This document shows, one piece after another, positions 33,198 to 55,600 of a stretch of 64,000 nucleotides of DNA. Numbering within the stretch: position 1 is the stretch's first letter; every line of letters starts with the position of its first letter. Source of the stretch: Rhodobacter sp. (lineage in GTDB: Bacteria; Pseudomonadota; Alphaproteobacteria; Rhodobacterales; Rhodobacteraceae); assembly GCA_020250175.1 (NCBI GenBank), contig JADCEN010000003.1:62001-126000 (forward strand), written 5' to 3'. The position numbers and the translations under genes are program-made. The notes below the pieces were generated by a model, which was given only the letters and a program-made list of their open reading frames with translations, did not search any database and was not told where the DNA came from.

Positions 33198-33258
33198 CGA
33201 AATTGTGGCGCTTGATCTCAATGGCGAGAGAGCCGCAGTCTCACATCATTCATACCGA

Positions 33259-33286: not shown

Positions 33287-33304
33287 CGTAGATACGTATG
33301 GGCT

Positions 33305-35094: not shown

Positions 35095-35108
35095 CAAGGA
35101 GGTTTACT

Positions 35109-36347
35109 ATGCCCAGTGGAAGTCAACTTGCAAAGGCGCTGCGCCTTGGGGTGGCGGTTGCCGCCCTGACGGCGTCCGCCGGTCTGGCGCAGGACGCCAT
35201 CAAGATCGGCGTTCTGGAAGATCAGTCGGGCGATTTCGCCGCAGCCACCATGGTCAAGGTCAACGCGATCACGCTAGCCGCCGAGGAAATCAACGCGGCT
35301 GGCGGGATCGGTGGCCGCCCGATCGAACTGGTCACCTATGACACGCAGTCCGACAACACCCGCTATCAGGAATTCATGCGCCGCGTGCTGCAAAGCGACA
35401 AGGTGGATGTGGTCTTCGCCGGTTTTTCCTCGGCCTCGCGTGAGGCGTATCGCCCCATCGTCAACCAGTTCGACGGGTTGGCCTTCTACAACAACCAGTA
35501 CGAGGGTGGCGTTTGCGATGCCAACATGATCGTCACAGGCGCGGTGCCGGAACAGCAGTTTTCGACCCTGATCCCCTGGATGATGGAAAAATACGGCAAG
35601 AATGTCTATACGCTGGCCGCCGATTACAACTTTGGCCAGATCTCGGCCGAATGGGTGCGCAACATCGTCGAAGCCAATGGTGGCACCATGGTGGGCGAAG
35701 AGTTCATCCCGCTGGGCGTGTCGCAGTTCGGCCAGTCGATCCAGAACATCCAGGCCGCCAAGCCCGGCTTTGTGGTGACATTGCTGGTGGGTGCTGCACA
35801 GGCGTCCTATTATGAACAGGCGGCGGCGGCCAATGTGAACCTGCCGATGGCATCCTCGGTCAATGTGGGCCAGGGCTATGAACACAAGCGCTTCACCCCG
35901 CCCAGCCTGAAGGACATGTATGTGACCACCAACTTCATCGAAGAGGTGGACACGCCTGCCGCGAAGGCCTTTGTCGAGAAATTCCGCGCCCGCTTCCCGG
36001 ATGAGCCGTATATCAACCAGGAAGCGGCCAATTCCTACATCGCGATGTATCTTTACAAGCAGATGGTGGAACGTGCGGGCACGACAGATCGCGCCGCGTT
36101 ACTTGCCGAACTGGCCAAGGGCGATGTCTGCTTTGACGGACCCTCTGGCAAGGTCTGCCTTGATCCGAAAAGCCAGCACATGTCGCACACGATCTATCTG
36201 GCCAAGGTTGAGGCCGACCACAGCATCAGCTTTCCCACCGTCTGGGAAAACATCGCGCCCTACTGGCTGGGTGAAGCCGGCTGTGACCTGACCAAGACTG
36301 ACCCAAGCGCGCAATACACGCCGTCCAGCCCGCCGCCGGCGAACTGA
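35109..36347 (+). CDS. Urea/short-chain-amide ABC transporter binding protein
   Basis: A 412-residue branched-chain-type periplasmic binding protein with a signal peptide (to about residue 28, AGLAQ). It has the UrtA/FmdD-type pattern: IKIGVLEDQSGDF, NNQYEGGVCDANMIVTG and ADYNFGQISAEWVRNIVEANGG. Cysteines near residues 138, 340, 346 and 398 could form disulfides. An AAGGAGG ribosome-binding site precedes the ATG. With two permeases and two ATPases downstream it forms a complete importer, and the company of amide hydrolases and an amide sensor points to formamide, acetamide or urea. A strong hairpin follows. Confidence 0.92.
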   Translation: MPSGSQLAKALRLGVAVAALTASAGLAQDAIKIGVLEDQSGDFAAATMVKVNAITLAAEEINAAGGIGGRPIELVTYDTQSDNTRYQEFMRRVLQSDKVDVVFAGFSSASREAYRPIVNQFDGLAFYNNQYEGGVCDANMIVTGAVPEQQFSTLIPWMMEKYGKNVYTLAADYNFGQISAEWVRNIVEANGGTMVGEEFIPLGVSQFGQSIQNIQAAKPGFVVTLLVGAAQASYYEQAAAANVNLPMASSVNVGQGYEHKRFTPPSLKDMYVTTNFIEEVDTPAAKAFVEKFRARFPDEPYINQEAANSYIAMYLYKQMVERAGTTDRAALLAELAKGDVCFDGPSGKVCLDPKSQHMSHTIYLAKVEADHSISFPTVWENIAPYWLGEAGCDLTKTDPSAQYTPSSPPPAN

Positions 36348-36358
36348 GGGCAAAGACG

Positions 36359-36380
36359 CCGGGGGCGGCAACGCCCCCGG
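36359..36380 (+). terminator. Hairpin between the binding-protein and permease genes
   Basis: A perfect 9-bp stem CCGGGGGCG-gcaa-CGCCCCCGG followed by TCCATTTCTTT, 11 bases after the binding-protein stop codon. It looks like an intrinsic terminator allowing partial read-through, keeping binding protein in excess over the membrane subunits. It could also be a site where the antiterminator matters. Confidence 0.85.
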
Positions 36381-36441
36381 TCCATTTCTTTCCGCGCGCC
36401 GGGCTTGACAGGCCAGACGCGGCTTCGACAGGGAGACGGGT

Positions 36442-37308
36442 GTGTTACCGACCTTATTCTCGTTCCTTTATCAGTTCGGCGATGCCTTTGCCTTTCTGGT
36501 GATCGCCTCGATGGGGCTGGCGATCATCTTCGGAATGATGGGGGTCATCAACCTTGCGCATGGCGAATTCATCATGTGCGGGGCCTATACAACCGTCAGC
36601 CTGGCCCAGCTTGGCCTGCCCCTGCCCCTGGCCATTGCAGGCGGCGCTCTTGCTGCCGGTCTGATCGGCATGCTGATCGAGGTGACGGTCATCCGGCACC
36701 TGTACAACCGGCCGCTGGATTCCATCGTTGCCACCTGGGGGCTCAGCATGATTGCAACCCAGGGTGTGCTGATTGTGCTGGGGTCCACCATGCAGGGCGT
36801 CGGCACACCATTGGGCAGCTTTACCGTGGGCGGGTTTTCCTATTCCACCTACCGTCTGGTCCTGATGGGGATTGCGGTGCTGTTGCTGGCGGGGCTGTAT
36901 CTTCTGTTCTACCACACCCGCGCCGGGGTGATCGCGCGGGCGACGATCCAGTTGCCGCGGATGGCAAGGGCAATGGGCGTTGACACCGGAAGGGTTTACA
37001 CGCTGACCTTTGGCCTTGGGGCCGCGCTGGCGGGGCTGGCGGGCGGCCTTTACGCCCCGACGATGACGCTGGTGCCCACGATGGGGGCAACCTTCATGGT
37101 GGAAAGTTTTGTCACCGTAGTGATCGGGGGGGGCGACATCTTTCTTGGTGCGGCACCTGCGGCGGCAATTCTTGCCGTCATCCGGTCGGGCATGACCGCC
37201 TGGCAGGGCCAGCTCTTTGGCCAGATCGGCCTGCTGATTACCGTCATCATCGTGATCCGGGTTCTTCCGGGGGGGTTGTCGGGCTGGATCCTGGGGGGGC
37301 GCAAATGA
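36442..37308 (+). CDS. Amide/urea ABC transporter permease 1 (UrtB-like)
   Basis: A 288-residue branched-chain-type permease with about eight membrane helices; conserved blocks include GMMGVINLAHGEFIMCGAY and MGVDTGRVYTLTFGLGAALAGLAGGLYAP. It has the compact length of LivH/UrtB core domains without the long N-terminal extension of some UrtB proteins. The GTG at 36442 follows an AGGGAGAC ribosome-binding site. It overlaps the second permease gene by four bases. Confidence 0.92.
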   Translation: MLPTLFSFLYQFGDAFAFLVIASMGLAIIFGMMGVINLAHGEFIMCGAYTTVSLAQLGLPLPLAIAGGALAAGLIGMLIEVTVIRHLYNRPLDSIVATWGLSMIATQGVLIVLGSTMQGVGTPLGSFTVGGFSYSTYRLVLMGIAVLLLAGLYLLFYHTRAGVIARATIQLPRMARAMGVDTGRVYTLTFGLGAALAGLAGGLYAPTMTLVPTMGATFMVESFVTVVIGGGDIFLGAAPAAAILAVIRSGMTAWQGQLFGQIGLLITVIIVIRVLPGGLSGWILGGRK

Positions 37309-38435
37309 CAGGGCAAGGCAAGTCCGGCCCGGGTGTCGGGCCGTCCCTGATCGACGCCACCCCAAGGCAGCAGCGCAACACGCTGGCGCTGTGGCTGTCG
37401 CGGCTAGAGGGGCCGCAGACCATGGGGCGCGGCCGGGGGTTCTGGAGCGTCCTGGCCCTGGCCGTGCTGGCGGCTGCGATTTATCCGATGTTCGTTGATG
37501 GCTGGACCGTGGGGAACACCGCGTATTTTCTGGTCTGGACCTTCATGGCCATGGGGCTGGGGGTGATCTGGGGCTATGCCGGATCGCTGTCCTTCGGCCA
37601 GACTGCGTTTTTCGGGCTGGCGGGCTATGGCTATGGCGTGCTGACGCTGAACTTCGGCGCGGCTTACGGGTTTACGCTTGTGGCGCTGCTGCTTGCCGTG
37701 GGCCTGGCGGTCCTGCTGGCGGTGGTGCTGGGATATTTCATGTTCTACGGCCGCGTGCAGGGCGTGTTCATCGGCATCGTCACCCTGTCGGTCACGCTGG
37801 TGTTTCAGGCCTTCATGGCCCAGACTGCGGGGCCGGAATGGGCGATTGGGGCCGCCCGCCTGAACGGGTTCAACGGCATGTCGGGCATGCCGCCGCTGAC
37901 CATTCCCTGGCCGGGGGGGGATGTGCTGCTTTATGCCGACATCGCGCTTTATTACGTGCTCCTCGGCCTGATGCTGGTGGTCTATCTCGGGCTGCGGATG
38001 CTTCTGAACGCGCCCTTCGGCAATGTGCTGGTCGCCATCCGCGAAAACCCCGAACGGGCCGAGATGCTGGGCTATGACGTGCGCCGCTATCAGCTGTTGG
38101 GCTTTGTGCTGGGCGGCGCCCTGGCGGGTCTGTCGGGGGTGCTCTACACCGCCTGGGGCCAGTACATCACGCCCAGTTCCATGGGCATCACCGCCGCTGC
38201 CCTGCCGGTGATCTGGGTGGCCTTTGGTGGGCGCAAGGACGTGACCGCCACCCTGATCGGAACGCTGGCGATGATCTTCCTGTACCAGTGGCTGACCATC
38301 TACGGCAGCCAATATGCCATCGTGGCGATGGGGGTGATCCTTGTCCTGACCGTCCTTTTCGCCCCCGAAGGCATCGTGCTGTCGCTGATGCGCTGGCTTT
38401 CCGCACGCCTGACACCCGCCGGAGGCCGCCCATGA
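37305..38435 (+). CDS. Amide/urea ABC transporter permease 2 (UrtC-like)
   Basis: A 376-residue branched-chain-type permease (LivM/UrtC): a hydrophilic N-terminal extension of about 40 residues, then helices with GVIWGYAGSLSFGQTAFFGLAGYGYG and RENPERAEMLGYDVRRYQLLGFVLGGALAGLSGVLY, the cytoplasmic loop that contacts the ATPases. It overlaps its neighbours on both sides by four bases, indicating tight coupling. Confidence 0.93.
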   Translation: MTGQGKSGPGVGPSLIDATPRQQRNTLALWLSRLEGPQTMGRGRGFWSVLALAVLAAAIYPMFVDGWTVGNTAYFLVWTFMAMGLGVIWGYAGSLSFGQTAFFGLAGYGYGVLTLNFGAAYGFTLVALLLAVGLAVLLAVVLGYFMFYGRVQGVFIGIVTLSVTLVFQAFMAQTAGPEWAIGAARLNGFNGMSGMPPLTIPWPGGDVLLYADIALYYVLLGLMLVVYLGLRMLLNAPFGNVLVAIRENPERAEMLGYDVRRYQLLGFVLGGALAGLSGVLYTAWGQYITPSSMGITAAALPVIWVAFGGRKDVTATLIGTLAMIFLYQWLTIYGSQYAIVAMGVILVLTVLFAPEGIVLSLMRWLSARLTPAGGRP

Positions 38436-39145
38436 TCCTGCAGACCCGCGGCCTGTGCAAACGCTTTGGCGGCGTGCATGTTGCGCGCAACATCGACTTT
38501 GGCATCGAAGCGGGCGAGATTCATTGCCTGATCGGACCGAACGGGGCGGGAAAATCCTCACTCTTCCGGCTGATCCTGGGGGCGCATCAGCCAGACAGCG
38601 GCACCATCCTGTTCAAGGATGAGGATGTGACCCGCCTGCCCCCCTTTGCCCGTATCCGCAAGGGAATGAGTGTGAAATTTCAGGTGCCCGGCATCTTCAA
38701 GGACCTGAGCGTGCGGCAGAACCTTGTGATTTCGTTCCAGCACCACCTGCACGGCCATGATCTTGAGGCGACAATCCAGCGCGTGGTTGCCTTTGCCGGG
38801 CTGGAGGGTCTGGAAGGAAAGGCCGCAGGCACCTTGTCGCACGGGCGCCAACAATGGCTGGAAATCGGCATGGCGGTTGGGGTGGAACCATCGCTTCTGC
38901 TGCTGGATGAACCGACAGCGGGCATGTCGCCCGAAGAAACCCGCCAGACCGGAGAGATGCTGCGCGTCCTGAACGCGCAGGGCGTGACCATTCTGGCGGT
39001 GGAACATGACATGTCGTTTGTCCAGCAAATCGCCGACCGGGTGACGGTGCTGCATTTCGGCGAGATATTCGCCCAAGGGTCGGTGCAAGAGATCATCTCG
39101 CACCCCGGCGTGGCCGACATCTATCTGGGGGCGTCCGATGACTGA
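38432..39145 (+). CDS. Amide/urea ABC transporter ATPase 1 (UrtD-like)
   Basis: A 237-residue ATPase with Walker A IGPNGAGKSS near residue 34-43, the variant signature LSHGRQQWLEIGMAVG characteristic of UrtD-type ATPases, Walker B LLLLDEPTAGMSPEE and H-loop VEHDMSFV. It pairs with the following ATPase to form the nucleotide-binding dimer. It overlaps its neighbours on both sides. Confidence 0.94.
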   Translation: MILQTRGLCKRFGGVHVARNIDFGIEAGEIHCLIGPNGAGKSSLFRLILGAHQPDSGTILFKDEDVTRLPPFARIRKGMSVKFQVPGIFKDLSVRQNLVISFQHHLHGHDLEATIQRVVAFAGLEGLEGKAAGTLSHGRQQWLEIGMAVGVEPSLLLLDEPTAGMSPEETRQTGEMLRVLNAQGVTILAVEHDMSFVQQIADRVTVLHFGEIFAQGSVQEIISHPGVADIYLGASDD

Positions 39146-39842
39146 CATGCTGAATGTCTCGGACCTGCGTGCGGGCTATGGTGGCGAGCCTGTGTTGCAG
39201 GGCGTGTCATTGCGCGTGGGCAAGGGTGAAATCGTGGCCGTGATCGGCCGCAACGGCGTGGGCAAAAGCACATTGATGCGCACGCTGATCGGGCTGTTGC
39301 CGGTCGGGGCGGGCCGGATCGAATTCGCCGGGCGCGAGGTGAACAGGATCACCGCGCAGGGCCGGGCGCGCATGGGGATGGGTTATATCCCCCAGGGGCG
39401 CGATGTGTTTCCCCGCCTGACGGTGCGGGAAAACCTGCTGGTCGGCGAAACCGCCCGGCGTGGCGGAAGCCCCGATTACGGCAGGGTGTATGAATTCTTC
39501 CCGATCCTCCAGGAACGCGCCCACCAGGCGGCGGGCACGCTTTCGGGCGGGCAACAGCAACAGCTTGCGATCGGACGGGCCATGGTGGGCGGCCCGGACC
39601 TGATGCTGCTGGATGAACCGTCCGAGGGGATCCAGCCTTCCATCGTCAAGGATATCGCCCGCAACATCAAACGGTTGAACGCCGAAACCGGGCTGACCGT
39701 CCTGTTTGTCGAACAGAACCTTGATCTGATCGTCAACCTCGCGCAACGCGGCTTTGTCATCGACAAGGGGCGCATCATCGCTGAGGTCGGCCATGATCAG
39801 ATCAAGGATCGCGAGCAGGTGAAGAAATGGCTGGCACTGTAA
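39138..39842 (+). CDS. Amide/urea ABC transporter ATPase 2 (UrtE-like)
   Basis: A 234-residue ATPase of the LivF/UrtE group: Walker A GRNGVGKSTL, signature TLSGGQQQQLAIGRAM, Walker B LMLLDEPSEGIQPSIV and H-loop VEQNLDL. The pair of ATPases with different signatures is the usual arrangement for urea/amide importers. It overlaps the previous gene by eight bases and precedes the first amidase by 28 bases. Confidence 0.94.
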   Translation: MTDMLNVSDLRAGYGGEPVLQGVSLRVGKGEIVAVIGRNGVGKSTLMRTLIGLLPVGAGRIEFAGREVNRITAQGRARMGMGYIPQGRDVFPRLTVRENLLVGETARRGGSPDYGRVYEFFPILQERAHQAAGTLSGGQQQQLAIGRAMVGGPDLMLLDEPSEGIQPSIVKDIARNIKRLNAETGLTVLFVEQNLDLIVNLAQRGFVIDKGRIIAEVGHDQIKDREQVKKWLAL

Positions 39843-39870
39843 GGACATCACATCAGAAGGGAGACTGGGC

Positions 39871-40860
39871 ATGAGCTGGTTCGACGCCTCGGTAATGGCG
39901 AAAAAAGGCGTGGCACGGGGAAAACCCGGATCAAGCCATTTCATCGGGATCAAGGATCAGGGCGCCTTTCACTACGTCTACGGACCCTATGCCGCACCGG
40001 TGCTTGAGGTGAACCCGGGCGCAGTGGTTACGGTGGAAACACATGACGCCTTCGAGGGAAAGATCACCTCGGAATCCGACCGCCCGTCGGAAATCCTGAA
40101 CTTTCCCTTCCTGAACCCGCAGACCGGCCCGATTCTGGTGCGCGGGGCCGAAAAGGGCGATTGTCTGGCGGTCAAGATCATCTCGATCAAGCCGCGCGGG
40201 CCGCAACCGGTGGGCACAACCTGCCTTCTGCCCGAATTCGGCGGGCTTGTGGCCACCGGGCAGACCGCGATGCTGAACGCGCCCCTGCCGGAAAAGGTCA
40301 AGAAGGTGCGGCTGGATGAAGACGGGGTCTATTGGTCAGACAGCATCACCCTGCCGTATGAGCCGTTCATCGGCACCATAGGCACCAGCCCCGAGATCGA
40401 GGCGATCTCGTCCCTGGTCCCGGACTACTACGGCGGCAACATGGACCTGCCCGATGTGGGGCCTGGCGCGATCATCTATCTGCCTGTCAACATCGCAGGG
40501 GCGCTGCTGTATCTGGGCGATTGCCATGCCATTCAGGGCGATGGCGAATTGTGTGGCGTGGCCATGGAAATGCCCGCCACGGTGCAGGTGCAGATTGATC
40601 TGATCAAGGGCCACACCATCGGCTGGCCCCGGCTGGAAACCGAAACGACGATCATGACCATCGGCAGCGCCCGCCCGCTGGAAGATGCGGCGCGCATTGC
40701 CTATCGCGAACTGGTGCGCTGGATCGATCAGGAAACCGGCATGGGGCAGGAAGAGGCCTATATGCTGCTGACCATGGCGGGCAAGGCGCGCCTGGGCAAC
40801 ATGGTGGACCCGAAATACACGATCGGCACCGGCATCGCCAAGACCTACATCGGTCTCTGA
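39871..40860 (+). CDS. Acetamidase/formamidase family enzyme 1
   Basis: A 329-residue member of the FmdA_AmdA family, which hydrolyses formamide or acetamide to ammonia and the acid. Family blocks: VLEVNPGAVVTVETHDAFEGKI, ILVRGAEKGDCLAVKI, NMDLPDVGPGAIIYLPVNIAGALLYLGDCHAIQGDGELCGVAMEMP, and the conserved C-terminal AYMLLTMAGKARLGNMV. The AGAAGGGAGAC ribosome-binding site is good. As the gene directly after the transporter, it should act on the imported amide in the cytosol. Confidence 0.92.
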   Translation: MSWFDASVMAKKGVARGKPGSSHFIGIKDQGAFHYVYGPYAAPVLEVNPGAVVTVETHDAFEGKITSESDRPSEILNFPFLNPQTGPILVRGAEKGDCLAVKIISIKPRGPQPVGTTCLLPEFGGLVATGQTAMLNAPLPEKVKKVRLDEDGVYWSDSITLPYEPFIGTIGTSPEIEAISSLVPDYYGGNMDLPDVGPGAIIYLPVNIAGALLYLGDCHAIQGDGELCGVAMEMPATVQVQIDLIKGHTIGWPRLETETTIMTIGSARPLEDAARIAYRELVRWIDQETGMGQEEAYMLLTMAGKARLGNMVDPKYTIGTGIAKTYIGL

Positions 40861-40876
40861 CCACCCTCAAAAGGCG

Positions 40877-40903
40877 GCCCTGGCGGCTCAAATCTGCCAG
40901 GGC
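40877..40903 (+). terminator. Stem-loop between the two amidase genes
   Basis: An 8-bp perfect stem GCCCTGGC / GCCAGGGC with an 11-base loop in the 127-base gap between the two amidase genes. No T-run follows, so it may modulate rather than end transcription. Confidence 0.5.
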
Positions 40904-40987
40904 GGCGGGGCGTGATGCGAAAGGCTTGCTGCGCGACTGCGCCGCTCTAGCTATCGGACAGGGAACGAACATCTCAGGGGGATTACA

Positions 40988-42304
40988 ATGCCAGACGGCA
41001 GCAACACGCATTCAAGCCGCAGCATCGTGGTGTCGGAATTCACCAACTCTGTGCTGGACCCGGATGCACCGATGCTGGGGCCGGTCGAGAACGGCGGCAC
41101 CATCATCGCCAATACCGCGCCCGGCTGCTGGGGACCGATGATCACCCCCGCTTTGCGCGGCGGACATGAGGTGACGCGCCCGGTCTATGTGGACGGGGCC
41201 GAGATTGGCGACGGGGTCGCCATCCGCATCCGCGACATCACGGTCACCTCAATTGCCACGGCCTCGGGACATGATTCCTCACCCGAGGGCTTTTGCCTGG
41301 GCGACCCCTATGTCGCAGGACGTTGTCCGGTCTGCGACACGGTCTGGCCGGAAACCCATGTCGAGGGGATCGGGCAGCAGGCCGTCAAGTGCAACACCTG
41401 CGGCAATGCGGTAACCCCCTTTGCCATCGTGCATGGCTATACCGTCACGTTCGATGAATCCCGCTCTGTCGGCCTGACGCTGCCACAGGCGGCGGCAGAG
41501 ACCATTGCGCGCGATGCCAACCACTATTCCGCCCTGCCGGACCAAAGCCGCCAGCACTCGATCCTGACGTTCGCGCCGTCGGATATGCCCGGCACGCTGG
41601 TGCGGATGCGCCCCTTCATGGGTCAGCTTGGGACCTGCCCGTCGATGGCAATGCCAGACAGCCATAATGCGGGTGACTTCGGCTCTTTCCTCATCGGTGC
41701 CCCGCATGAATATGCGATCACCGCCGAGCAACTGGCCCAACACAAGACCGACGGTCACATGGACATCGACGCCGTGCGCGCAGGGGCCATCCTCATCTGC
41801 CCTGTCAAGGTGCGGGGTGCCGGTGTCTACATGGGCGACATGCACGCAGGCCAGGGCGATGGCGAGATTGCCGGGCATACGATGGATGTCTCAGGCAGCG
41901 TGACACTGCAGATCGAGGTGGTGAAGAATTACCCGATTGACGGCCCCGTCCTGTTCCCGCTGGAAGAGGACCTGCCGCCGATGGCCCGGCCCTTCACGGC
42001 TGCCGAAAAGGCCAAAGGGCGACGGCTGGCGGCAAAATGGGGGGTGGCCGGGATTGAGCCTTTGGCCCCTGTCAGCGTGATCGGCACAGCCGCCAACCTG
42101 AACCTTGCCATCGAAAACGGGCTGGCGCGGGCGGCCAGGCTTTTGGGCATGACGGTGGCCGAGGTGCGCAACCGCGCAACAGTGAACGGCGCGATTGAGA
42201 TTGGCCGTGCCCCAGGCGTCATTCAAGTGACATTCCTGGCGCCGCTTGCCCGCCTTGATGCCGCAGGTTTGGGGGATTTCGCGCGCGAGCAATACGGTCT
42301 GTGA
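40988..42304 (+). CDS. Acetamidase/formamidase family enzyme 2, with Cys4 insertion
   Basis: A 438-residue second member of the FmdA_AmdA family, about 110 residues longer than the first. Shared blocks: HEVTRPVYVDGAEIGDGVAIRI, GAGVYMGDMHAGQGDGEIAGHTMDVSG. It carries an inserted segment at about residues 115-142 with two Cys-x2-Cys pairs (CPVC and CNTC), looking like a zinc ribbon, and an extended C-terminus. The ribosome-binding site is CTCAGGGGG. It could have a different amide preference or different stability from enzyme 1. It is the last gene of the locus; an IS630 remnant starts about 100 bases later. Confidence 0.88.
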   Translation: MPDGSNTHSSRSIVVSEFTNSVLDPDAPMLGPVENGGTIIANTAPGCWGPMITPALRGGHEVTRPVYVDGAEIGDGVAIRIRDITVTSIATASGHDSSPEGFCLGDPYVAGRCPVCDTVWPETHVEGIGQQAVKCNTCGNAVTPFAIVHGYTVTFDESRSVGLTLPQAAAETIARDANHYSALPDQSRQHSILTFAPSDMPGTLVRMRPFMGQLGTCPSMAMPDSHNAGDFGSFLIGAPHEYAITAEQLAQHKTDGHMDIDAVRAGAILICPVKVRGAGVYMGDMHAGQGDGEIAGHTMDVSGSVTLQIEVVKNYPIDGPVLFPLEEDLPPMARPFTAAEKAKGRRLAAKWGVAGIEPLAPVSVIGTAANLNLAIENGLARAARLLGMTVAEVRNRATVNGAIEIGRAPGVIQVTFLAPLARLDAAGLGDFAREQYGL

Positions 42305-42401
42305 CCTCTGCGCGGTCCAACAGGCCCGCGCGTCCCTTCTGGCGGCAGCGTGATGCCGGGAAAGGGGCCAAGGGCAATCGTGTTGCGTTGCGTTCTGGCG
42401 A

Positions 42402-43189
42402 GACCGTGTTGCGGCCATTGCGATTCAGAATTCCCATGGCGGCTGATTTGTAGGTCCCCCTGCCTATCGCAGATATTGGGGGACAAGGATGGGCAAGCCA
42501 CTTCCTGTGGAGCTTCGTCAGCACGTCGTTGCTTTCGTTGAGGAAGGCCACACACCGGGCTGCTGCGGCGCGGTGCCGGGTTTCCATAAAATTCGTCAAC
42601 GACAGGGTGCTGCCAAGGCGCAGGACCGGGTCGCTTGATCCCAAGCCCCGGGCAACGGCGGCGGGCATGGCAAGCTGGCGGGCGTGGCGGGCTGGACGCG
42701 CCACGGGTCATCGGCGGGCCGATCAACCGCATGCACCATGCCGCTTGAACCGGCGGCGCGTCATGTCCCATTCTTCGACCTTTGCATCGAAACCCGACCG
42801 GCCCAGACCCAGCACAAGGGCGACGTGGTGATCCTCGATATCCTTGCCACCCTCCGCAGCCCGAAGGCCGCCGCGATCCTGAAAGACATCGGCGCATGGT
42901 TCCCGGTCTTGCCGGCAGACTCCCCCGACCTCAATCCCGTTGAAATCACTCGGGCATTCACCGGGACCAGTGGCGTTCATGCCCTCATGTTTGCCAGGTT
43001 CAAGGCCATTCGTCGGGAAATTGATCCCCCGGATCAATCTCTTACCCTCCACATTCCGAAAGACCGCTGCCCGCACCTATGACCCGCCTTGGAAAGCCGT
43101 TGGCCAGGTCCGCGACCTTTTCAAGGAAGAAGAATGCCATAACCTCTGCAAAGCCGCAGGATATGAAGCCGAATGAGCGCAACGCGCCC
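42402..43189 (+). mobile_element. IS630-family remnant, copy a (internally deleted)
   Basis: A 788-bp relic. The left end GACCGTGTTGCGGCCATT and the complement of the right end (GGGCGCGTTGCGCTCATT) form imperfect terminal repeats, and the right end is followed by TA, the IS630 target. The transposase starts at 42489 (GKPLPVELRQHVVAFVEEGH), shifts frame, then jumps to the DDE part (GDVVILDILATLRSPKAAAILKDIGAWF...SPDLNPVE) and ends with EECHNLCKAAGYEAE. The central third of the gene is missing. It is inactive. Confidence 0.8.
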
Positions 43190-43551
43190 TAACCCTTTGA
43201 TCCGGCTCCTGCCACCTGCGCAAGTCGCGTCTCGTCCAAGCCGGTTTTGTCGAATTTCGGAACGCCGCCCCGAGGCTCAGGCGAAATGCGCGAAAGCTGG
43301 TGATGGCCTGAACCTTCACCCTGGTCCGCTGATCATCTGTCGGACGCGGTTGCATCCGGTGCGGCCGGCTGGAGCGGCCCAACAGACCCGCCCGCCCTTG
43401 CGGCAGAATCGCGGGCAATCCACTTGCGCACCGTCACCTCTGCAACCCCGATCACGCCGGCGATCCGGCCCGGTGTTTCGCCCGCCTTCCTCCGCCCCGC
43501 AATCAGAGCGCGCATTCCGGGCGTGGTCTGGGCCTTCTTGGGAATGTTCAC
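43190..43551 (-). pseudogene. IS481-like transposase remnant
   Basis: From a GTG at 43551 the minus strand encodes NIPKKAQTTPGMRALIAGRR...GVAEVTVRKWIARDSAARA, the N-terminal helix-turn-helix of IS481-type transposases. After a frameshift near 43390-43400 it continues as GLLGRSSRPHRMQPRPT and then a second degenerate stretch (NSTKPAWTRRDLRRWQEPDQR). It stops exactly at the right end of IS630 copy a, so it was probably cut by that insertion. It is inactive. Confidence 0.65.
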
Positions 43552-43646
43552 CGGCTGTCGCCCCGGGGATCGTGCCGCTGTGCAAACACCACAATCAGCA
43601 AATTCAGCCCCTGGACGACCTGTTGAGACGTTGCCGCCGGGGCGTG

Positions 43647-43979
43647 TCACTCTGCGCTCTTTGGCGGGTTTTTTCCCGGCGCAGGCGAAGGGGAAGCGCT
43701 TGCAGCCGATGCGCGGACCTGATGCGCCCAGACTTCGCGGCGAATGCGGGCGGTCTTGTAGGCGTCCAGCGTTGCCATTGCCCAGACAAAAAGCCCTCCC
43801 GATATCTTGCCGACAAAGGAAATGTCCGCTGCGGCCGTCTTCACGGTGAAGGCCCCCAGCAGAACGGCAAAACAGACAAAGATCAGCCCGCGCACCGGTT
43901 GGCGGTTCAGGACCTGGCCCATACCAGGCAGCAGGATCGCCACGGCAAGAACACTGTAGGGATTCAGCGGTGGCTTCAT
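43647..43979 (-). CDS. Small two-helix membrane protein of the APC-permease operon
   Basis: A 110-residue protein with a proline/glycine-rich first membrane segment (about 8-30, AVAILLPGMGQVLNRQPVRGL), a second segment (about 30-50), a third weaker hydrophobic stretch near 56-70, and a hydrophilic C-terminus rich in Ala, Ser and Pro. The start pattern resembles small TM2-like membrane proteins. Function unknown. Its ATG overlaps the stop of the preceding unknown gene, so it is cotranscribed with the permease operon. Confidence 0.65.
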   Translation of the reverse strand: MKPPLNPYSVLAVAILLPGMGQVLNRQPVRGLIFVCFAVLLGAFTVKTAAADISFVGKISGGLFVWAMATLDAYKTARIRREVWAHQVRASAASASPSPAPGKNPPKSAE

Positions 43980-44644
43980 GCTTGCCCCCTCAGGACATCA
44001 TTGCGCAACGTGGCCAGCCTGCCGAGGATAGGTTCAAGGCGGGCAGGGGAAAGCGGTGTCCTTCCCATTTCGGCCTCGCGGAAGATGAGGAAGCGTCCAC
44101 GGTCGGCTTCCTCGGCCAGGATGACGATGCGGATGCCCTTTGGCGAGAGAACCAGTTCCTTGACTTGCGGGTCATTGAACAGGTCCGCATGGGCAGAGAT
44201 CAGTTCAGACGCAAGGATCGTCGGGGCATTGTCGGTACGGATGACAACATGGGCAGGCAGGTCGGGGGGGGTGGGCAAGGAGTGCGGCAGGGTCGGGAAG
44301 CGGCTGAACGACTCATTGCCCGAAGGGCGTGCCATCAGGTTCAGGGTTGCCGGCAGCGGCATGGGCCCGGGCAGTGTGACCAGCACCCAAAGCGCGGGCA
44401 GCTTGCGGAACGTCAGTGTGTCGGGGATGGCTTGCAAGTCATAGGCAAGGCCACAGCGCTTGCCGGTCATCCGGGGAAAGCCGGTCGGTTGCAGGCGCGT
44501 CACGCCCCCGTCGAACAGGGGTTTCAGTGCCGCAAAGTACCCGGCGCGGGCTGCGGTGCGGGCACGGCTTTCCCGAACCAGACGGGCGCTCAGCCAAAGG
44601 CCCAGGGCGGCGACGGCAAGGCCAAGGGGAATAAGCGGGGACAT
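43976..44644 (-). CDS. Unknown single-pass protein of the APC-permease operon
   Basis: A 222-residue protein with one N-terminal membrane helix (about 3-20), then a mixed alpha/beta soluble domain (LKPLFDGGVTRLQPTGFPRMTGKRCGLAYDLQ, later VVIRTDNAPTILASELISAHADLF). The tail is helical. I do not recognise the family. The start ATG at 44644 directly precedes the membrane helix. It follows the APC permease by 38 bases and overlaps the next small gene by four bases. Confidence 0.65.
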   Translation of the reverse strand: MSPLIPLGLAVAALGLWLSARLVRESRARTAARAGYFAALKPLFDGGVTRLQPTGFPRMTGKRCGLAYDLQAIPDTLTFRKLPALWVLVTLPGPMPLPATLNLMARPSGNESFSRFPTLPHSLPTPPDLPAHVVIRTDNAPTILASELISAHADLFNDPQVKELVLSPKGIRIVILAEEADRGRFLIFREAEMGRTPLSPARLEPILGRLATLRNDVLRGQA

Positions 44645-44682
44645 GCGAATTGGCCCGCCCCTTTCGGGCCGGGCCGCATACC

Positions 44683-46119
44683 TCAGTAGCCCTGCGGTTT
44701 CGGCCAGGGCATGGTGAACTGCGCGCCCCGGTTCACGAAGCGGTAGCGCCAGAAGTGGAACCACAGCGACACAACGATGTAGAAGCCTATCATCGCAACA
44801 AGCTGGGTCCCGTAGCCGAGGAATACCGCGAAGAAAGTCACGCCGCAAAGGGTCAGAAGCGTGATCGCGGGCAGCGGGTGGAACGGGTGCTCATACCCGC
44901 GCTTGATCGAGTTCAGCGGCCATTTCCTTCGGAACATGATGATGTTCAGCGGCATGAAGGTATAGCCAAGGAGGCCCGAGAGGATCGAGAAGGTTATGAC
45001 CTGATCAAGCGGCGCGCCCAGGGCGAAGATCAGAGCGATGGGAACCAGGAAAACGATGGCCCGGTAGGGGGTGCGATACTTTGGATGCACCGCTCCGAAC
45101 CAGCCCGGCAGGTATTTGTCGCGGCCCATGGCGAACCATGCGCGGCTGGCATCGTTGATACAGCCGTTGGCGCTGGCAAGCGTGGCGAAGAGAGTGCCAA
45201 AGCCCAGAAGCCAGACAAGGCCAGCCGACCCGGAAAGGCGCGCCGTATCGAAGAGGGGTGCGACAGAACCGTTGACGCCGTCGCCCAGGAATTCCCAAGG
45301 CAGGACGCCGGAGCAGACGTACCAGGTAAGCGTGGCGGCGATGAGAAGCGTCATGATCCCGGCCAGCGTGCCGAACGGCAGCGCGCGGGCCGGAGAGCGG
45401 ACTTCCTCGGCCGCTTGCGTCGTCCCTTCAATGCCAAGGTAGTACCAGAGGCCAAAGTGCAGGGATGCAAGGATGCCGATCCACCCGTAAGGCAGTTCGT
45501 GGCCCTCGAAAAGCGCGGCATGATCCATGATCCCGGCACCGATGATGCCGGAGGTTGAGAGGAAAAGGATCAGGATCGCCGCGAAGGCAAAGGCGGTGAT
45601 GACAAGGTTGAAGGTCAGTGTCGCAAGGACACCCCGGTAGTTGAGCCAGGCCAGGAACATGATCACGAGGATGATGAAGGGCCGCTGGTTAAGCGCGCCC
45701 TCGTGCCCGGTTATCGTGGCCACGACAGACACGAGATAGCCCGCCGTTATGGCGTTGGCAGCTTCCAGCATCGTGTAGGCGAACACCAGGTACAGGCCGA
45801 CGTTGAAGGCCATCAGCGGGCCGACGATATGCTTGGCCTGCGTATACTGCCCACCGGCCGAAGCAACGGTCGAGGTGACTTCGGAATCGATCATTGCCAC
45901 GCAGGTATAAAGGATGCCCGCGAACCAGCACGCGATGAGGGCTGCATAGGCGCCGCCTTTGCCGACGGCGAAGTTCCAGCCCATGTATTCCCCGACCAGC
46001 ACGATGCCGACGCCCAGCGCCCAGACATGCGCGGGCCCGAGCACGCGCAGAAGGCCGACCTTGACGCCATGCGGGCCGATGCCGTCCATGGTTTTCGAGG
46101 TGATGTCCACTTCGGTCAT
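44683..46119 (-). CDS. APC-superfamily amino acid/amine permease
   Basis: A 478-residue secondary transporter with about twelve membrane helices. The first helix carries the glycine-rich APC motif (VWALGVGIVLVGEYMGWNF) and helix 3 the SAGGQYTQAKHIVGP block; GIEGTTQAAEEVRSPARALPFGT is the conserved helix 6-loop region. It looks closest to ethanolamine/amino acid permeases such as Eat, but the substrate is uncertain. Its start overlaps the stop of a 57-residue protein (ATGA), and two more small membrane genes lie upstream in the same operon. Confidence 0.88.
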   Translation of the reverse strand: MTEVDITSKTMDGIGPHGVKVGLLRVLGPAHVWALGVGIVLVGEYMGWNFAVGKGGAYAALIACWFAGILYTCVAMIDSEVTSTVASAGGQYTQAKHIVGPLMAFNVGLYLVFAYTMLEAANAITAGYLVSVVATITGHEGALNQRPFIILVIMFLAWLNYRGVLATLTFNLVITAFAFAAILILFLSTSGIIGAGIMDHAALFEGHELPYGWIGILASLHFGLWYYLGIEGTTQAAEEVRSPARALPFGTLAGIMTLLIAATLTWYVCSGVLPWEFLGDGVNGSVAPLFDTARLSGSAGLVWLLGFGTLFATLASANGCINDASRAWFAMGRDKYLPGWFGAVHPKYRTPYRAIVFLVPIALIFALGAPLDQVITFSILSGLLGYTFMPLNIIMFRRKWPLNSIKRGYEHPFHPLPAITLLTLCGVTFFAVFLGYGTQLVAMIGFYIVVSLWFHFWRYRFVNRGAQFTMPWPKPQGY

Positions 46120-46289
46120 GACTTCACCTTGTGCTCTTCCGCCATCGCCTCAAGCTCGCCTTCGCGGGATGATGTGAGAACGTCTTCCGGATAGGTGCTG
46201 TCGGTGCGAAGCCAATCCAGCACCATGTGCAGGGCGAAGGCCGCAGAAAGCGCCCAGGCCCCGTATTCAATCCAATTCCACAGACCCAT
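46116..46289 (-). CDS. 57-residue single-pass protein coupled to the APC permease
   Basis: A 57-residue protein starting MGLWNWIEYGAWALSAAFAL: one membrane helix (about 7-24) and an acidic, hydrophilic tail (SSREGELEAMAEEHKVKS). Its stop codon overlaps the permease ATG, so it is almost certainly translated with the permease. This coupling suggests a small accessory subunit. No known family is recognised. Confidence 0.7.
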   Translation of the reverse strand: MGLWNWIEYGAWALSAAFALHMVLDWLRTDSTYPEDVLTSSREGELEAMAEEHKVKS

Positions 46290-46293
46290 CGGC

Positions 46294-46671
46294 TTACTCC
46301 CCGAATTTTTCGGAAATGACCTCGCGGTATTCCACTTCGGAAAACCGCAGGATCAGGAAATAGTAAAGGACGATGACCACAATCATCGTCAGCAGCGCGC
46401 CGATGGAGAATGAATAGTCAAAGCGCGACAGGATAAGGTCATGGGCGCTTTCCGGCGTAAAGCCGAGAGCTTCGTACTTGGCCGCCTGAGCGGCATTCTG
46501 GTTGAGACTTTCCCAGGTGGGGTTTGCGACAGGTGCGGTTACGGATTTCGCCGCGCCGGCCATCCCGAGCCAGATTGGCACGAAAAGCGCGCCGACGGTC
46601 AGGACCACCAGCACGATGACGTCGATCAACTGGCTGGCCTTGCCTTGGGTCGGAGGTTGGTATTGTGCCAT
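46294..46671 (-). CDS. Small two-helix membrane protein of the APC-permease operon
   Basis: A 125-residue protein with two membrane helices (about 15-38 and 88-110) joined by a periplasmic-type loop (NPTWESLNQNAAQAAKYEALGFTPESAHDL) and short charged ends. It follows the previous gene by one base and precedes the 57-residue gene by four. Function unknown; a transporter accessory role is inferred from the operon. Confidence 0.72.
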   Translation of the reverse strand: MAQYQPPTQGKASQLIDVIVLVVLTVGALFVPIWLGMAGAAKSVTAPVANPTWESLNQNAAQAAKYEALGFTPESAHDLILSRFDYSFSIGALLTMIVVIVLYYFLILRFSEVEYREVISEKFGE

Positions 46672-46672
46672 C

Positions 46673-46960
46673 TCAGCCCTTGCGCCCCCGTGCCTGGTCG
46701 CTGAACCTGATGTCGAGGCCGTACATGAAGTCGCGGTCCTCGCGGTAGTGCCGGAGCATCGCCAGGATGGCGGCGGTGTTCAAGAAAAGCACCATTGCCC
46801 CGCCGCTCAGAAGCAGGATCCGCACCCCGCCGGAGGGTGCCAGGTCCCAGGTTGCAATCGCAACAAAGATCATCGCGCACCAAAGGCCGACCACGAACGC
46901 CCATGCCACCAGCACGTCGCGTTTGTGCATCGCCTCAATCCGCTGATTAAGGTCTCCCAC
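46673..46960 (-). CDS. Small two-helix membrane protein, first gene of the APC-permease operon
   Basis: A 95-residue protein: a charged N-terminus (VGDLNQRIEAMHKRDVLVAW), two membrane helices (about 18-38 and 45-66) and a charged tail ending in RFSDQARGRKG. The GTG at 46960 has a very good GGGGGAGGACAAT ribosome-binding site and is preferred to longer in-frame starts. Function unknown. The size and two-helix layout recall small subunits of sodium symporters, but no specific match is claimed. Confidence 0.7.
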   Translation of the reverse strand: MGDLNQRIEAMHKRDVLVAWAFVVGLWCAMIFVAIATWDLAPSGGVRILLLSGGAMVLFLNTAAILAMLRHYREDRDFMYGLDIRFSDQARGRKG

Positions 46961-47021
46961 ATTGTCCTCCCCCGGGCTGTTGTGCCTGCCGGCCCCCGAC
47001 GCAGCCCCGACATCGCTCCTC

Positions 47022-47036
47022 AGGGAATTTCCCTGT
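47022..47036. promoter_or_regulatory. Palindrome upstream of the APC-permease operon
   Basis: CAGGGAATTTCCCTG is a near-perfect 15-base palindrome lying 62 bases upstream of the first gene of the operon. A TTGACA motif occurs on the minus strand at 47080-47085, without a convincing -10. The palindrome is a candidate operator. Confidence 0.35.
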
Positions 47037-47220
47037 CCGGCAAAATTGTTTTCCCCAAGGAAAGCCAACTGCGACATTCTGTCAAGACAAACCACATGTG
47101 CCCAGAGATTGGGCAGCAGTTTCCGATGGTGATGGAAATACGTTCACCTCAGTTTGCAGCGCTGTGCTTGTGTGACCGCTCCCTCGACTCCACCGATATG
47201 CCAAGATGGGTCGCCGCCTT

Positions 47221-47920
47221 GGGCATGTTGCGGCCATTGCGATGCTTGTGTCCCATGGTGGCTGATTTCTGTGTCCCTCTGCCTGTGGCAGATGTTGGGG
47301 GACAAGGATGGGCAAGCCACTTCCTGTGGAGCTTCTCCCGCGCGTCGTTGATGTCGTGGAGGAAGGCCGCTCGCATCGTTCGGCGGCGGCTAATTTCCGC
47401 GTGTCAGTCAAATTCGTCAACGACAGGGTGCTGCCAGGGCGCAGGGCCGGATCGCTTGATCCCCAGCCCCGGGGCAACGGCGGCGGGCATGGCAAGCTGG
47501 CGGGCGTGGTGGGTTGGACCCAGCACCGGATCAGGGAAAAAGCGTGACCTGACGCGGGATGAACGGGTGGTGGAACTGCGTGACGGGCATGGCATTGGGG
47601 CGCACCGCGTTCCGGTCTGGCGGCACCTGCGCGCCCTTGGCCTGACACATAAGAAACGACCTGCGGGGTGAGCCATTGATGCGCCATCGGTCCGAGCACA
47701 ATGGCGAACGGGCAGAAGCGCCCCGATATCGCGCGGGCGCGCGATGTTATGGATCAGCCGCCGTCAGCCCTTCATGCGTCACGTGCTGACAAGACTTGCC
47801 TTCATCGACGACACCTCGCTCCAGACCAACCTGGCCAGGACCACCGGATGGTCGCCCTGCGGGGGGCGGCTGGTCGATCATGTCCCGTTCGGCCACTGGC
47901 AGACCCAAACATTTGCGACG
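47221..47920 (+). mobile_element. IS630-family remnant, copy b (3' truncated)
   Basis: Left terminal repeat GGGCATGTTGCGGCCATT at 47221-47238, then a transposase start at 47308 (GKPLPVELLPRVVDVVEEGR). This copy keeps the middle that copies a and c lack: DLTRDERVVELRDGHGIGAHRV, GLTHKKRPAG, then after frame changes QPFMRHVLTRLAFIDDTSLQ and PFGHWQTQTF. Homology ends near 47911, so the C-terminal DDE part and right end are lost. It is inactive. The end is approximate. Confidence 0.78.
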
Positions 47921-51684: not shown

Positions 51685-51853
51685 GGCGGTTGGTAAGGCC
51701 TCCTGCAACCGATGTCTTTTGCGCCCGAGAAACGCCGGGCCCTGCCACGGGCCTCAGCTTGGACCTCTGATGATATCGGCCGCCAGAGCGCGCCGCGCTC
51801 TCGACCATCCGTTCCATGGGTCATGTCGGACGCACTCGAACCAGTCCTGGCTG

Positions 51854-52626
51854 AAGCGTGTTGCGGCCATTCCTGTTCTGGAGTGCCATGCCTGTAGAGG
51901 TCTGAGTCCCCTGCCTGTGGCAGATGTTGGGGGACAAGGATGGGCAAGCCAATTCCTGTGGAGCTTCGTCAGCGCGTCGTTGATGTCGTTGAGGAAGGCC
52001 ACTCGCATCGTTCGGCGGCGGCGAAGTTCCGCGTATCGGTCAGGTTCGTCAACGACAGGGTGCTGCCAAGGCGCAGGACCGGGTCGCTTGATCCCCAGCC
52101 CCGGGGCAACGGCGGCGGGCGTGGTGGGCTGGACGCGCCCCGGGTCATCGGCGGGCCGATCAACCGCATGCACCATGCCGCTTGAACCGGCGGCGCGTCA
52201 TGGCCCATTCTTCGACCTTTACATCGAAACCCCACCGGCCCAGACCCAGCACAAGGGCGACGTGGTGATCCTGGATAGCCTTGCCACCCACCGCAGCCCG
52301 AAGGCCGCCGCGATCCTGAAAGACATCGGCGCATGGTTCCCGTTCTTGCCGCCAGACTCCCCCGACCTCAATCCCGTTGAAATCAATCGGGCATTCACCC
52401 GGACCAGTGGCGTTCATGCCCTCATGTTTGCCAGGCTCAAGGCCATTCGTCAGGAAATTGATCCCCCGGATCAATCTCTTGCCCTCTTCATTCCGAAAGA
52501 CCGCTGCCCGCACCTGAGACCCGCTCTGAAAGTCCGTCGGCCAGGTCTGCGACCTTTTCAAGGAAGAAGAGTGCCATAACCTCTGCAAAGCGGCAGGATG
52601 TGAAGCCGAATGAGCGCAACGCGCCC
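51854..52626 (+). mobile_element. IS630-family remnant, copy c (internally deleted)
   Basis: A 773-bp relic with left end AAGCGTGTTGCGGCCATT and right end complement GGGCGCGTTGCGCTCATT. The transposase begins at 51940 (GKPIPVELRQRVVDVVEEGH), is intact through the helix-turn-helix (SAAAKFRVSVRFVND), then joins directly to LDAPRVIGGPINR and stops. The C-terminal DDE part (GDVVILDSLATHRSPKAAAILKDIG...) and EEECHNLCKAAGCEAE follow in another frame. The junction is the same as in copy a, with an extra deletion of about 18 bases. The right end abuts the stop codon of the RND pump gene. Confidence 0.82.
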
Positions 52627-55600
52627 TAATGCGCCTGCGGTCCGATGCCGGGCGCTGATCCCGCCTTCGGCCCCTTGACCCATTCGCGCAGCGACTGGAA
52701 CACCACGTAAAGCGCGGGAACCACGAAAATGCCCACCAGTGCGGCCGCCAGCATGCCCCCCGCCACACCGGTGCCCACGGCCCGGCGCGAATACATCGAC
52801 GGCCCGACGGCGATCACCAGCGGGATCAGCCCGGCGATGAAGGCAAAGCTTGTCATCATCACCGCCCGGAACCGCGACCGCGCGCCATCAATCGCGGCCT
52901 CGACGATGGGCACCCCGGCCTCGCGCCGCGCCTTGGCGAATTCCACGATCAGGATCGCGTTCTTCGCCGCCAGCGCAATCAGCACCACCAGCCCGATCTG
53001 GGCATAGATATTGAAGGGCAGCCCCGCCAGAAGCAGCGATGCCATGGCCCCCGCCACCCCGAACACCACCGAAATCAGCACGGGCACCGGAATCGTCCAG
53101 CTTTCATACAGCGCCACCAGGAACAGATAGGCAAAGAGCAGCGCCAGCGCCAGAATGACCACCGTCTGCCCTGCCGCCTTCTTTTCTTCCAATGCGGTGC
53201 CGGTCCATTCAAAGGTATAGCCGTCGGGCAGGACCTGGGCCGAAACCGCCTCCATCGCCGCAAGCGCCTGCCCGGTCGAGGCATCGGCCGAAGGCGTGCC
53301 GCTGATCGTGGCCGACCGCACGTTGTTGTAGCGCTGCAGCGACAGCGGCCCCACGGCGTATTCCGCCTTGGCCACCGCCCCCACCGCAACCATCTGCCCG
53401 GTGTTGGAGCGCACGTGAATCCTTGCAATATCGTCGACAGAGGCGCGGTCACTTTCCCGCGCGGTGATCAGAACCTGCCAGGCCCGTCCAAACAGGTTGA
53501 AATCGTTGACGTAAACCGTGCCAAGCGTGGACTGGAGCGCATTGAACAAATCCGACAGCGACACACCCAGCGCATAAAGACGGTCGCGGTCGATATCCAG
53601 ATACACCTGCGGACTGTCTGCCGAGAAGGTGGTGTAGACGCCCGACAGATCCGGGTGCTGGTTGGCCGCCAGCGCCAGCCCGCGCGCGGTTTCCGCAAGC
53701 TCGGTCGCCGGTCTGCCTTGCGTATCGATCAGCTGATACTCAAAGCCCGACCCTGTCCCAAGGCCAGGGATGGGGGGCATGTTGAACGGGATCACCTGCG
53801 CCTCGCGCAGTTTCGCCCCCTCGATAAAGGCGTTGCGGATCGCCCAGAAGACGGATGTCTCGCGGGTCTTGCGGTCCGCGAAATCATCCATCGTCACCAT
53901 CGCAAAGGCTGCGTTCGATTTCGCCAGCCCGTCCAGCATCGAATAGCCTGTGACGGTGGTCACGCTTCTGACCCCTTCCAGCCCGGCCAGCATGGTTGCA
54001 ACACTGGCCTGCACCGCTTTGGTGCGGTTCACCGAAGCGGCGTCGGGAAGCCGGGTTTCCACCATGAAATATCCCTGGTCCTCGGCGGGAAGGAACCCCG
54101 ACGGGACCGTCTTGAACAGAAAACCCGTCAACAGGAACGCCGCCGCCACCAGCACGACACCGATCACGACGCGCCGGGCAATCGCCCCGGCAACATAGGC
54201 ATAGCCATCGCGCGCGCCGTCGATGCGCCGGGAAATCCAGCCCAGAACACCCTTCTTCGGCCCATGATGCGGCGACAGGATGATCGCGCACAGCGCCGGG
54301 GCCAGGGTCAGCGCATTGATCGCCGAAATCACCATCGCGACCGAAACCGTGACGGCAAACTGCTGGAACAACTGCCCCGAGATGCCGGGAATGAAGGCAA
54401 CCGGCACGAAGACCGACAGCAACACCAGCGTGATCGCCAGGATCGCCCCGGTAATTTCACCCATGGCAGTACTTGCCGCCCCGGCAGGTGACAGGCCGGG
54501 GTTCGCCGCCATCTTCGCTTCGACCGCCTCGACCACGACGATGGCATCATCCACCACGATCCCGATCGCCAGCACCATCGCCAGCAGCGACACGGTGTTG
54601 ATGGTGAAATCCAGGGCAAACATCACCGCAAATGTGCCCACCAGCGCCACCGGCACGGCAATCAGCGGAATGATCGTGGCCCGCAGGCTGCCAAGGAAGA
54701 TGAACACAACCAGCACGACCAGCACAAAGGCCTCGATCAGCGTGTGTTCAACCGACCTGATGCTTTCCTTCACAAAGACAGAACTGTCTGCGACGATCTC
54801 GTATTCGATCCCGGTTGGAAACGCCGCCGACAGCCGGGCCAGCGCGGATTTCACCCCGTCGGCCGCCGCCAGCGAATTTGCCCCCGGCGCAAGATAGATG
54901 CCCACCAGGGTCGCCGGTGCGCCGTTGAAGAAACTGCTGATGTCCGCGTTGCGCGACCCAAGCTCGACCTTGGCGATATCGTAAACCCTGACGGTGCTGC
55001 CATCCGCATTTGATCGGATGATGATCCGTCCGAACTCGTCGGGGTCCGTCAGCCGGCCCTGGGTCTGCACGTTCAGCTGCAAACCCGGGTCTTCTGTCAT
55101 CGGCTGGCCACCGACACGCCCGATGGCGGCCTGAAGGTTCTGGCTGCGCAGCGCTGCCGTCACATCGGCCGGCGTCAGGTTCATCGCCGTCAGCCTGTCA
55201 ACATCCAGGATGATCCGCATGGCGAATTCATCTCCGGCAAAGACCGTGGCATCCCCAACACCCGGCACACGCTTGAGCGTATCGACAATGTTGATCCGGG
55301 CATAGTTGGTCAGCGTCGGCCCGGTGATTGACGGATCACTGGAATGCAGCACCACACCCAGCAGCAGCGAGGCGGATTTCTTGGCAACCTTGATCCCGGT
55401 CTGCCTGACCTCTGACGGCAGCAGCGGCTCGGCCAGCGCCACGCGGTTCTGCACCAGAACCGTGGCAATATCGGGATCCGTGCCCACTTCGAACGAGATG
55501 TTCAGCGTATAGCTGCCATCCGCCCCGGAGGTCGATTTCATGTAGATCATGTTGTCGACGCCGATGACCTTGTCCTCGATCACCTGGGCCACGGTCGCTT

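Follow-up and report, generated by a model that had tools for sequence, protein, structure and literature searches.

Among amines, methylamine is both abundant and climate active, and its specific uptake by methylotrophs was measured decades ago. Carriers of the amino acid-polyamine-organocation (APC) superfamily that function with a one-helix partner are known from animals as the heteromeric amino acid transporters (SLC7 with SLC3). The GkApcT-MgtS heterodimer is a structural precedent for such a pairing (PMC5803215). The N-methylglutamate (NMG) pathway for methylamine is located in the cytoplasm (PMC5023228), and therefore methylamine must enter the cell. AmtB/Mep transporters have been reported in NMG clusters of marine Rhodobacteraceae (PMC5520151, PMC7574528). 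In the openly available literature, with subscription literature mostly outside our scope, we found no prior description of a methylamine permease, nor of any amino acid permease in connection with the NMG pathway. Here we describe a cassette of six genes in a 64,000-nucleotide stretch of DNA from Rhodobacter sp. (GCA_020250175.1, contig JADCEN010000003.1, positions 62,001 to 126,000), referred to as the window. The cassette (43647-46960 of the window, minus strand) encodes an APC permease and five small proteins, which are named here for their lengths in residues. We consider it likely that the cassette is a dedicated importer of monomethylamine (as methylammonium), or of a very similar short amine, that in many bacteria of soil and water feeds the NMG pathway, the main cytoplasmic route of methylamine degradation, and in which the small proteins are partners of the permease. 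The substrate, the direction of transport, the assembly into a complex, and the part played by each small protein are what we infer from the comparisons below.

Genes of the cassette and their conservation

All six open reading frames were confirmed on the minus strand, in the transcription order p95, p125, p57, APC permease, p222, and p110. The first gene, p95 (46673-46960), has a GTG start and encodes a 95-residue membrane protein with two predicted helices at residues 17 to 35 and 48 to 66. The 125-residue p125 (46294-46671) has two predicted transmembrane helices (residues 11 to 34 and 90 to 123; AlphaFold2 predicted local distance difference test [pLDDT] score of 82). The 57-residue p57 (46116-46289) is a one-helix protein, and its stop overlaps the permease start by 4 bases (ATGA). 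The 478-residue permease (44683-46119) is an APC superfamily member that matches the family profiles along most of its length, scoring 109.9 bits against Pfam AA_permease_2 and 108.5 bits against AA_permease (gathering scores, 27 and 24.6). It is followed by the 222-residue p222 (43976-44644), which has an ATG start, with a longer TTG start possible, and consists of an N-terminal anchor (residues 5 to 34) and a soluble alpha/beta domain. The last gene encodes the 110-residue p110 (43647-43979), a small membrane protein whose gene shares 4 bases with the end of p222. The gaps in this order are 1, 4, -4, 38, and -4 bases. Thus, the coordinates bear out the original prediction, made from the letters of the window alone, of six co-directional genes of these sizes with no gap above 38 bases and with a p57 stop that overlaps the permease start. 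The prediction also gave p57 a single helix, which is likely, but a simple hydropathy scan scored that helix below its threshold, and it is not a strong call on its own.

The small open reading frames are protein-coding genes under purifying selection and not chance reading frames, because substitutions relative to their relatives lie mostly at third codon positions and because gene order and strand were identical in 92 of the 92 loci in which all six genes were complete. The counts at codon positions 1, 2, and 3 were 8, 7, and 24 for p57 compared with locus L016, 12, 8, and 48 for p125, and 37, 28, and 89 for p222.

A scan of GTDB contigs recovered 267 stretches encoding a p125 relative, from which 80 loci were kept. 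Cassette holders belonged to the Rhodobacterales, the Hyphomicrobiales, and Paraburkholderia, with one additional genome from another class (locus L126). In an even, phylum-wide sample of 398 genomes, the same 14 genomes carried p125 and the permease, and a permease of this APC subfamily was never found alone (limit, 1e-50; weakest true match, about 1e-196). These 14 genomes span only seven genera and hence are not 14 independent events. A tblastn search with p125 retrieved 22 plasmid records, and a search with the permease of another genus also retrieved 22, with matching genera and numbers. The original prediction would have been refuted by small genes that do not co-occur with the permease in other genomes. 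This comparison did not refute it, as p125 and the permease were paired in 14 of 14 genomes and each query retrieved 22 plasmid records. The sequence comparisons indicate that the association is old, because identities in distant holders, including Paraburkholderia and the genome of another class, fall to 65% for the permease, about 37 to 41% for p125, and about 30% for p222. The earlier idea of a permease with dedicated small proteins is thus strongly supported by obligate co-occurrence and invariant order, but the formation of a complex is still something that we infer.

Linkage to the NMG pathway

The original prediction had raised the possibility of a multisubunit permease but offered no clue to its substrate. 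Linkage to the NMG pathway supplies one. Genes mgsABC and/or gmaS were near the cassette in 44 of the 61 loci for which at least 8 kb was available on both sides. Across all loci, mgsA was upstream in the opposite orientation in 58, downstream in the same orientation in 6, upstream in the same orientation in 4, and downstream in the opposite orientation in 1. These four arrangements indicate that the linkage was retained through rearrangement.

Individual loci illustrate how close the linkage can be. In four genomes of genus g71, mgsA-mgsB-mgsC-gmaS-p95-p125-p57-APC-p222-p110 form a single run, with amtB next in locus L097, and the mgs-gmaS genes and the cassette likewise make up a co-directional run in loci L121, L122, L123, and L127. 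Genus g325 is represented by three genomes in which mgsABC-gmaS-mgdAB come after the cassette and dmmDABC is divergent. In Sinorhizobium meliloti Ak57, the order is tmm-dmmDABC-purU-cassette-gmaS-mgsCBA-mgdABCD, in an island that also includes folD. The cassette of Paracoccus aminophilus is divergent from mgsABC-gmaS. Those passages of the P. aminophilus study that deal with mgsABC-gmaS (pAMI6p108-105) describe an operon for gamma-glutamylmethylamide synthetase and N-methylglutamate synthase and do not mention the adjoining cassette (PMC4543880). Other arrangements include L126, where the cassette adjoins more distant mgd and gmaS homologues; Aminobacter aminovorans, in which mgsABC-gmaS-mgdABCD lies about 20 kb from the cassette on the same plasmid; and Paraburkholderia, where the cassette adjoins a dmmD-like gene and a TmoP-like permease. 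Even when the cassette did not adjoin mgs genes, mgsB was present in 17 of 20 whole genomes. As a control, strong mgsB matches were found in about 52 of 385 genomes of the class versus 5 of 6 cassette holders.

Eighteen NMG clusters picked from genomes without the cassette show that the pathway can exist alone. In one of these, L131, amtB and a small one-helix gene sit between mgsA and dmmD, in the slot of the cassette, and amtB is near the NMG cluster in L132 and L145. The cassette would thus be only one among several ways in which organisms with the NMG pathway achieve uptake.

The one-helix gene of these clusters is an observation in its own right. An unnamed gene for a one-helix protein of about 78 residues (p78) follows the ammonium transporter gene in NMG clusters (L097:16242-17905; L131, about 11.6 to 13.4 kb). 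Its product has no Pfam or NCBIfam match, and its charged tail (YNDDMEVL...) resembles the p57 tail in pattern. The Amt of those clusters may therefore also have a small partner. Separately, a glutamine-synthetase-like gene that is distinct from gmaS (26 to 30% identity) precedes the cassette at L013:10073-11425 and in L014 (about 6.8 to 8.2 kb), two unlinked loci from different orders; it is possibly another gamma-glutamyl-amine synthetase.

Permease family and predicted substrate site

The highest-scoring curated family for the cassette permease was the ethanolamine permease TIGR00908 (177.5 bits), for which the cutoff of 381.75 bits was not reached. The NCBIfam scan listed no match to TmoP (NF053774; cutoff, 690 bits), and the Pfam scan gave no match to Amt/Mep/Rh (PF00909), against which the Amt of L097 scores 194.8 bits.

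The best solved relative is GkApcT, in which the backbone of Thr43 touches the carboxylate of the substrate (PMC5803215). In a pairwise alignment at low identity, Val42 of the cassette permease aligns with this Thr43, and the Thr/Ser usual at the APC carboxylate site is absent. Trp225 falls at the position of the gating Phe231 of GkApcT, and Glu231 falls at Asp237; the proton-coupling Glu115 is replaced by Ala114, and Lys191 in transmembrane helix 5 (TM5) is replaced by Ala178. Within the permease family, V42-G43-E44 in TM1 and W225/E231 in TM6 are invariant, with Glu44, and likewise Trp225 and Glu231, conserved in 107 of 107 sequences. As far as can be judged from the aligned residues, the site fits a carboxylate-free substrate, i.e., an amine.

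Small proteins encoded with the permease

None of the five small proteins matched a family above threshold in Pfam, NCBIfam, or PDB sequence searches. For p95, p125, p57, and p110, there was also no NCBIfam match near any cutoff, including the cutoffs for the small subunits of sodium:solute symporters and for other curated small subunits of transporters. Each of these four has conserved motifs. The C-terminal tail of p95 has the conserved pattern AMLRHYxEDxxFxYGLD. Between its two helices, p125 has a loop of roughly 55 residues in which the motifs NPTWE..LGQN and R.DYSF are conserved; the loop is helical in the AlphaFold2 prediction and is probably on the periplasmic side. The tail of p57, Y(S)(E/D)(D/E)xLTSSREGELE, is strongly conserved and probably cytoplasmic by the positive-inside rule. 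The motif of p110 is NPYxVLA...LPGxGQV...RGL, and p110 has a weak, subthreshold likeness to DUF5683/DUF6677 in Pfam.

The public annotation of the S. meliloti Ak57 pSymB cassette (CP090106.1; L103:11427-11982) omits p125 and p57, both of which tblastn recovers at full length. The small genes of the cassette are probably underannotated in other records as well.

The AlphaFold2 model of p222 (pLDDT, 90.6; predicted template modeling score, 0.87) was compared with solved structures by VIA-align. The highest scores were to TtfA (6t84; Z of 11.9 over 154 residues) and to 7tm3 chain 4 (Z of 11.7 over 199 residues), followed by 6w6l chain 7 (Z of 10.1); the next structural group scored about 7. From the residue numbering, we take 7tm3 chain 4 and 6w6l chain 7, both from translocon structures, to be CCDC47. 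The soluble domain of p222 is thus confidently predicted to be membrane anchored and, through most of its extent, to have the TtfA fold; its predicted location is the cytoplasm, and the model suggests that p222 probably shares its fold with CCDC47. When Pfam and PDB sequences were searched with profiles, no sequence homology of p222 to TtfA or CCDC47 was detected. TtfA, which is anchored and has its domain in the cytoplasm, is in a complex with the MmpL3 transporter and is required for MmpL3 transport (PMC6593404). An Asterix-like role for p110 beside p222 with its CCDC47-like fold was also considered, but no sequence support was found, and we set this idea aside as speculation.

Upstream elements

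The original prediction had named a palindrome at 47022-47036 as a candidate operator. The palindrome, CAGGGAATTTCCCTG on the plus strand, is exact (0.01 expected by chance), and its true position is 47021-47035. It was present in 6 of 101 upstream regions, all from the genus of the window and several from the same genomes, so its role as an operator is unsupported beyond one genus. It was rejected in favor of a conserved element, TTGACAGANTGTCGCA (47070-47085, minus strand), a candidate promoter or regulator site that precedes the start of p95 by about 110 bases. This element is found in the same place with 0 to 2 mismatches in most cassette loci, whether or not they are linked to mgsABC. The whole genome contains a single exact copy, and genome-wide matches with two mismatches were no more frequent than in the reversed control, so no regulon for the element is shown.

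Proposed mechanism and alternative explanations

In the proposed mechanism, the APC permease would be the carrier through which methylammonium enters the cytoplasm, to be processed there by GmaS, then MgsABC, and then MgdABCD. The p57, p125, and p95 proteins may pack against the permease and stabilize, gate, or regulate it, with p57 making contact through its one helix and conserved cytoplasmic tail and p125 through its conserved periplasmic loop. Proteins with the TtfA/CCDC47 fold act on large multipass membrane proteins, and p222 and p110 could form an accessory or assembly module. A bolder version, which we regard as possible but doubtful, is an obligate multisubunit APC machine with three small helical subunits and a two-gene assembly module in which p222 is a chaperone or activator of the permease; this would make the cassette the first specific methylamine importer to be identified and p222 a bacterial counterpart of CCDC47 in both fold and role. 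It is also conceivable, but rather unlikely, that the small proteins are not subunits at all, but are cotranscribed with roles of their own, such as amine or nitrogen sensing, and that the permease suffices for transport. TmoP, an APC carrier of known function, does stand alone in the same islands. Against this reading stand the perfect co-occurrence and fixed order, which persist down to about 30% identity in p222 and 37 to 41% in p125, together with the ATGA-type overlaps.

Several observations weigh against methylamine import as the function of the cassette. About a quarter of the loci, including that of the window, have no adjoining methylamine genes; most genomes with the NMG pathway lack the cassette, which is hence not essential to the pathway; tmm and dmm genes often share the neighborhood, and thus dimethylamine or trimethylamine are possible substrates; and the identity underlying the GkApcT residue correspondences is low. 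The permease might instead carry another compound of the NMG network (glutamate, N-methylglutamate, or gamma-glutamylmethylamide) or another amine (dimethylamine or ethanolamine). This would agree with the frequency of tmm/dmm near the cassette, with TIGR00908 as the nearest curated family, though below its cutoff, and with the glutamine-synthetase-like gene before the cassette in L013 and L014. However, gmaS and mgsABC are common neighbors even with no tmm/dmm in view (genus g71 and L124), loci showing only mgs/gmaS or mgd argue for methylamine, and Val stands where amino acid carriers have their carboxylate-site Thr/Ser, so we consider a different substrate unlikely. A further alternative is that the permease exchanges methylamine for ammonium, or exports ammonium, rather than acting as a net importer. 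The NMG route frees ammonia in the cytoplasm, many APC proteins are antiporters, and both Glu115 and Lys191 of GkApcT are replaced by Ala. However, ammonium has its own carrier where amtB adjoins the cassette in genus g71, and an exchanger seems quite improbable. Uptake of formamide or urea for the neighboring amide operon, suggested by its AmiR/ANTAR regulator, urea-type ABC genes, and two FmdA/AmdA homologues, is scarcely credible, because decayed insertion sequences bound the neighborhood, the arrangement was unseen in the other loci read, and the operon has its own ABC transporter. Import of methylammonium for the NMG pathway remains the explanation that we favor.

Genomic neighborhood of the cassette in the window

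The amide-type operon (33074-42304, plus strand) encodes an AmiC-like sensor, the AmiR/ANTAR regulator, the urea-type ABC transporter, and the two FmdA/AmdA homologues. The ABC binding protein scores above the TIGR03669 cutoff, and both FmdA/AmdA homologues score well below the formamidase cutoff. Between this operon and the cassette lies a decayed remnant of an IS630-type (DDE_3) insertion sequence (42392-43192, plus strand), which is 88% identical to a third decayed copy in the same orientation at 51844-52629. On the other side, upstream of the cassette, is a remnant of the same insertion sequence (47223-47519, plus strand) that is 84 to 87% identical to the other two; all three copies are 84 to 88% identical. 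The block shared by the window and L014 is 43188-47227. Its two ends coincide exactly with these two copies, an arrangement that resembles a relic composite element. Because the block is bounded in this way, the amide operon beside it is best regarded as an accident of location, and a functional tie between cassette and operon was rejected.

The genome of the window does have NMG genes. On another contig (L095), mgsABC-gmaS occur with dmm, tmm, and a TmoP-like permease, so that mgsB is present. There are three sarcosine-oxidase/MgdC-like genes. The best MgdC homologue (L111, G000:C51:42779-45772; 55%) has one in-frame TGA in the aligned stretch, which may precede the true start or mark a decayed gene; internal stops are absent from the other two.

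Comparison with known systems

The cassette is a concrete, widespread candidate for the methylamine importer gene of the NMG pathway. What is new is an APC carrier with obligate small partners together with a well-supported guess at its substrate, which calls into question the view that bacterial APC carriers are each the product of one gene. The statement in the original prediction that APC transporters normally act alone was too strong, as both the animal heteromeric transporters and GkApcT-MgtS have one-helix partners. However, the SLC3 chains carry a large glucosidase-like ectodomain; the partners in the cassette are 57 to 222 residues long with no Pfam match above the gathering score, and thus the cassette is not of the SLC7/SLC3 type. 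Unlike p57, MgtS came from the Escherichia coli expression host and is not encoded by a linked gene.

Among transporters of amines, TmoP, the trimethylamine N-oxide permease of Methylocella silvestris, is an APC carrier, as is the cassette permease. Its substrate is a methylated amine compound, and it occurs in the same methylated-amine islands, where a TmoP-like protein scores 834.8 bits against NF053774. However, it belongs to another APC subfamily and is a single gene without small partners. The ethanolamine permease family (TIGR00908) resembles the proposed importer in that its substrate is a small primary amine; we know of no small partner genes for it. AmtB/Mep transporters can fill the slot of the cassette beside mgsA and dmm, as in L131, but they are of an unrelated family and lack p95, p125, p222, and p110 partners.

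For p222, the closest described arrangement is MmpL3-TtfA, as p222 is predicted to share with TtfA the fold, the N-terminal anchor, and the cytoplasmic domain. CCDC47 of the endoplasmic reticulum multipass translocon is probably also alike in predicted fold. Both differ from p222 in having no detectable sequence relation to it, and its partner in the cassette is an APC carrier. The predicted fold would thus tie an accessory protein of a bacterial permease to TtfA and, probably, to the eukaryotic membrane protein chaperone CCDC47.

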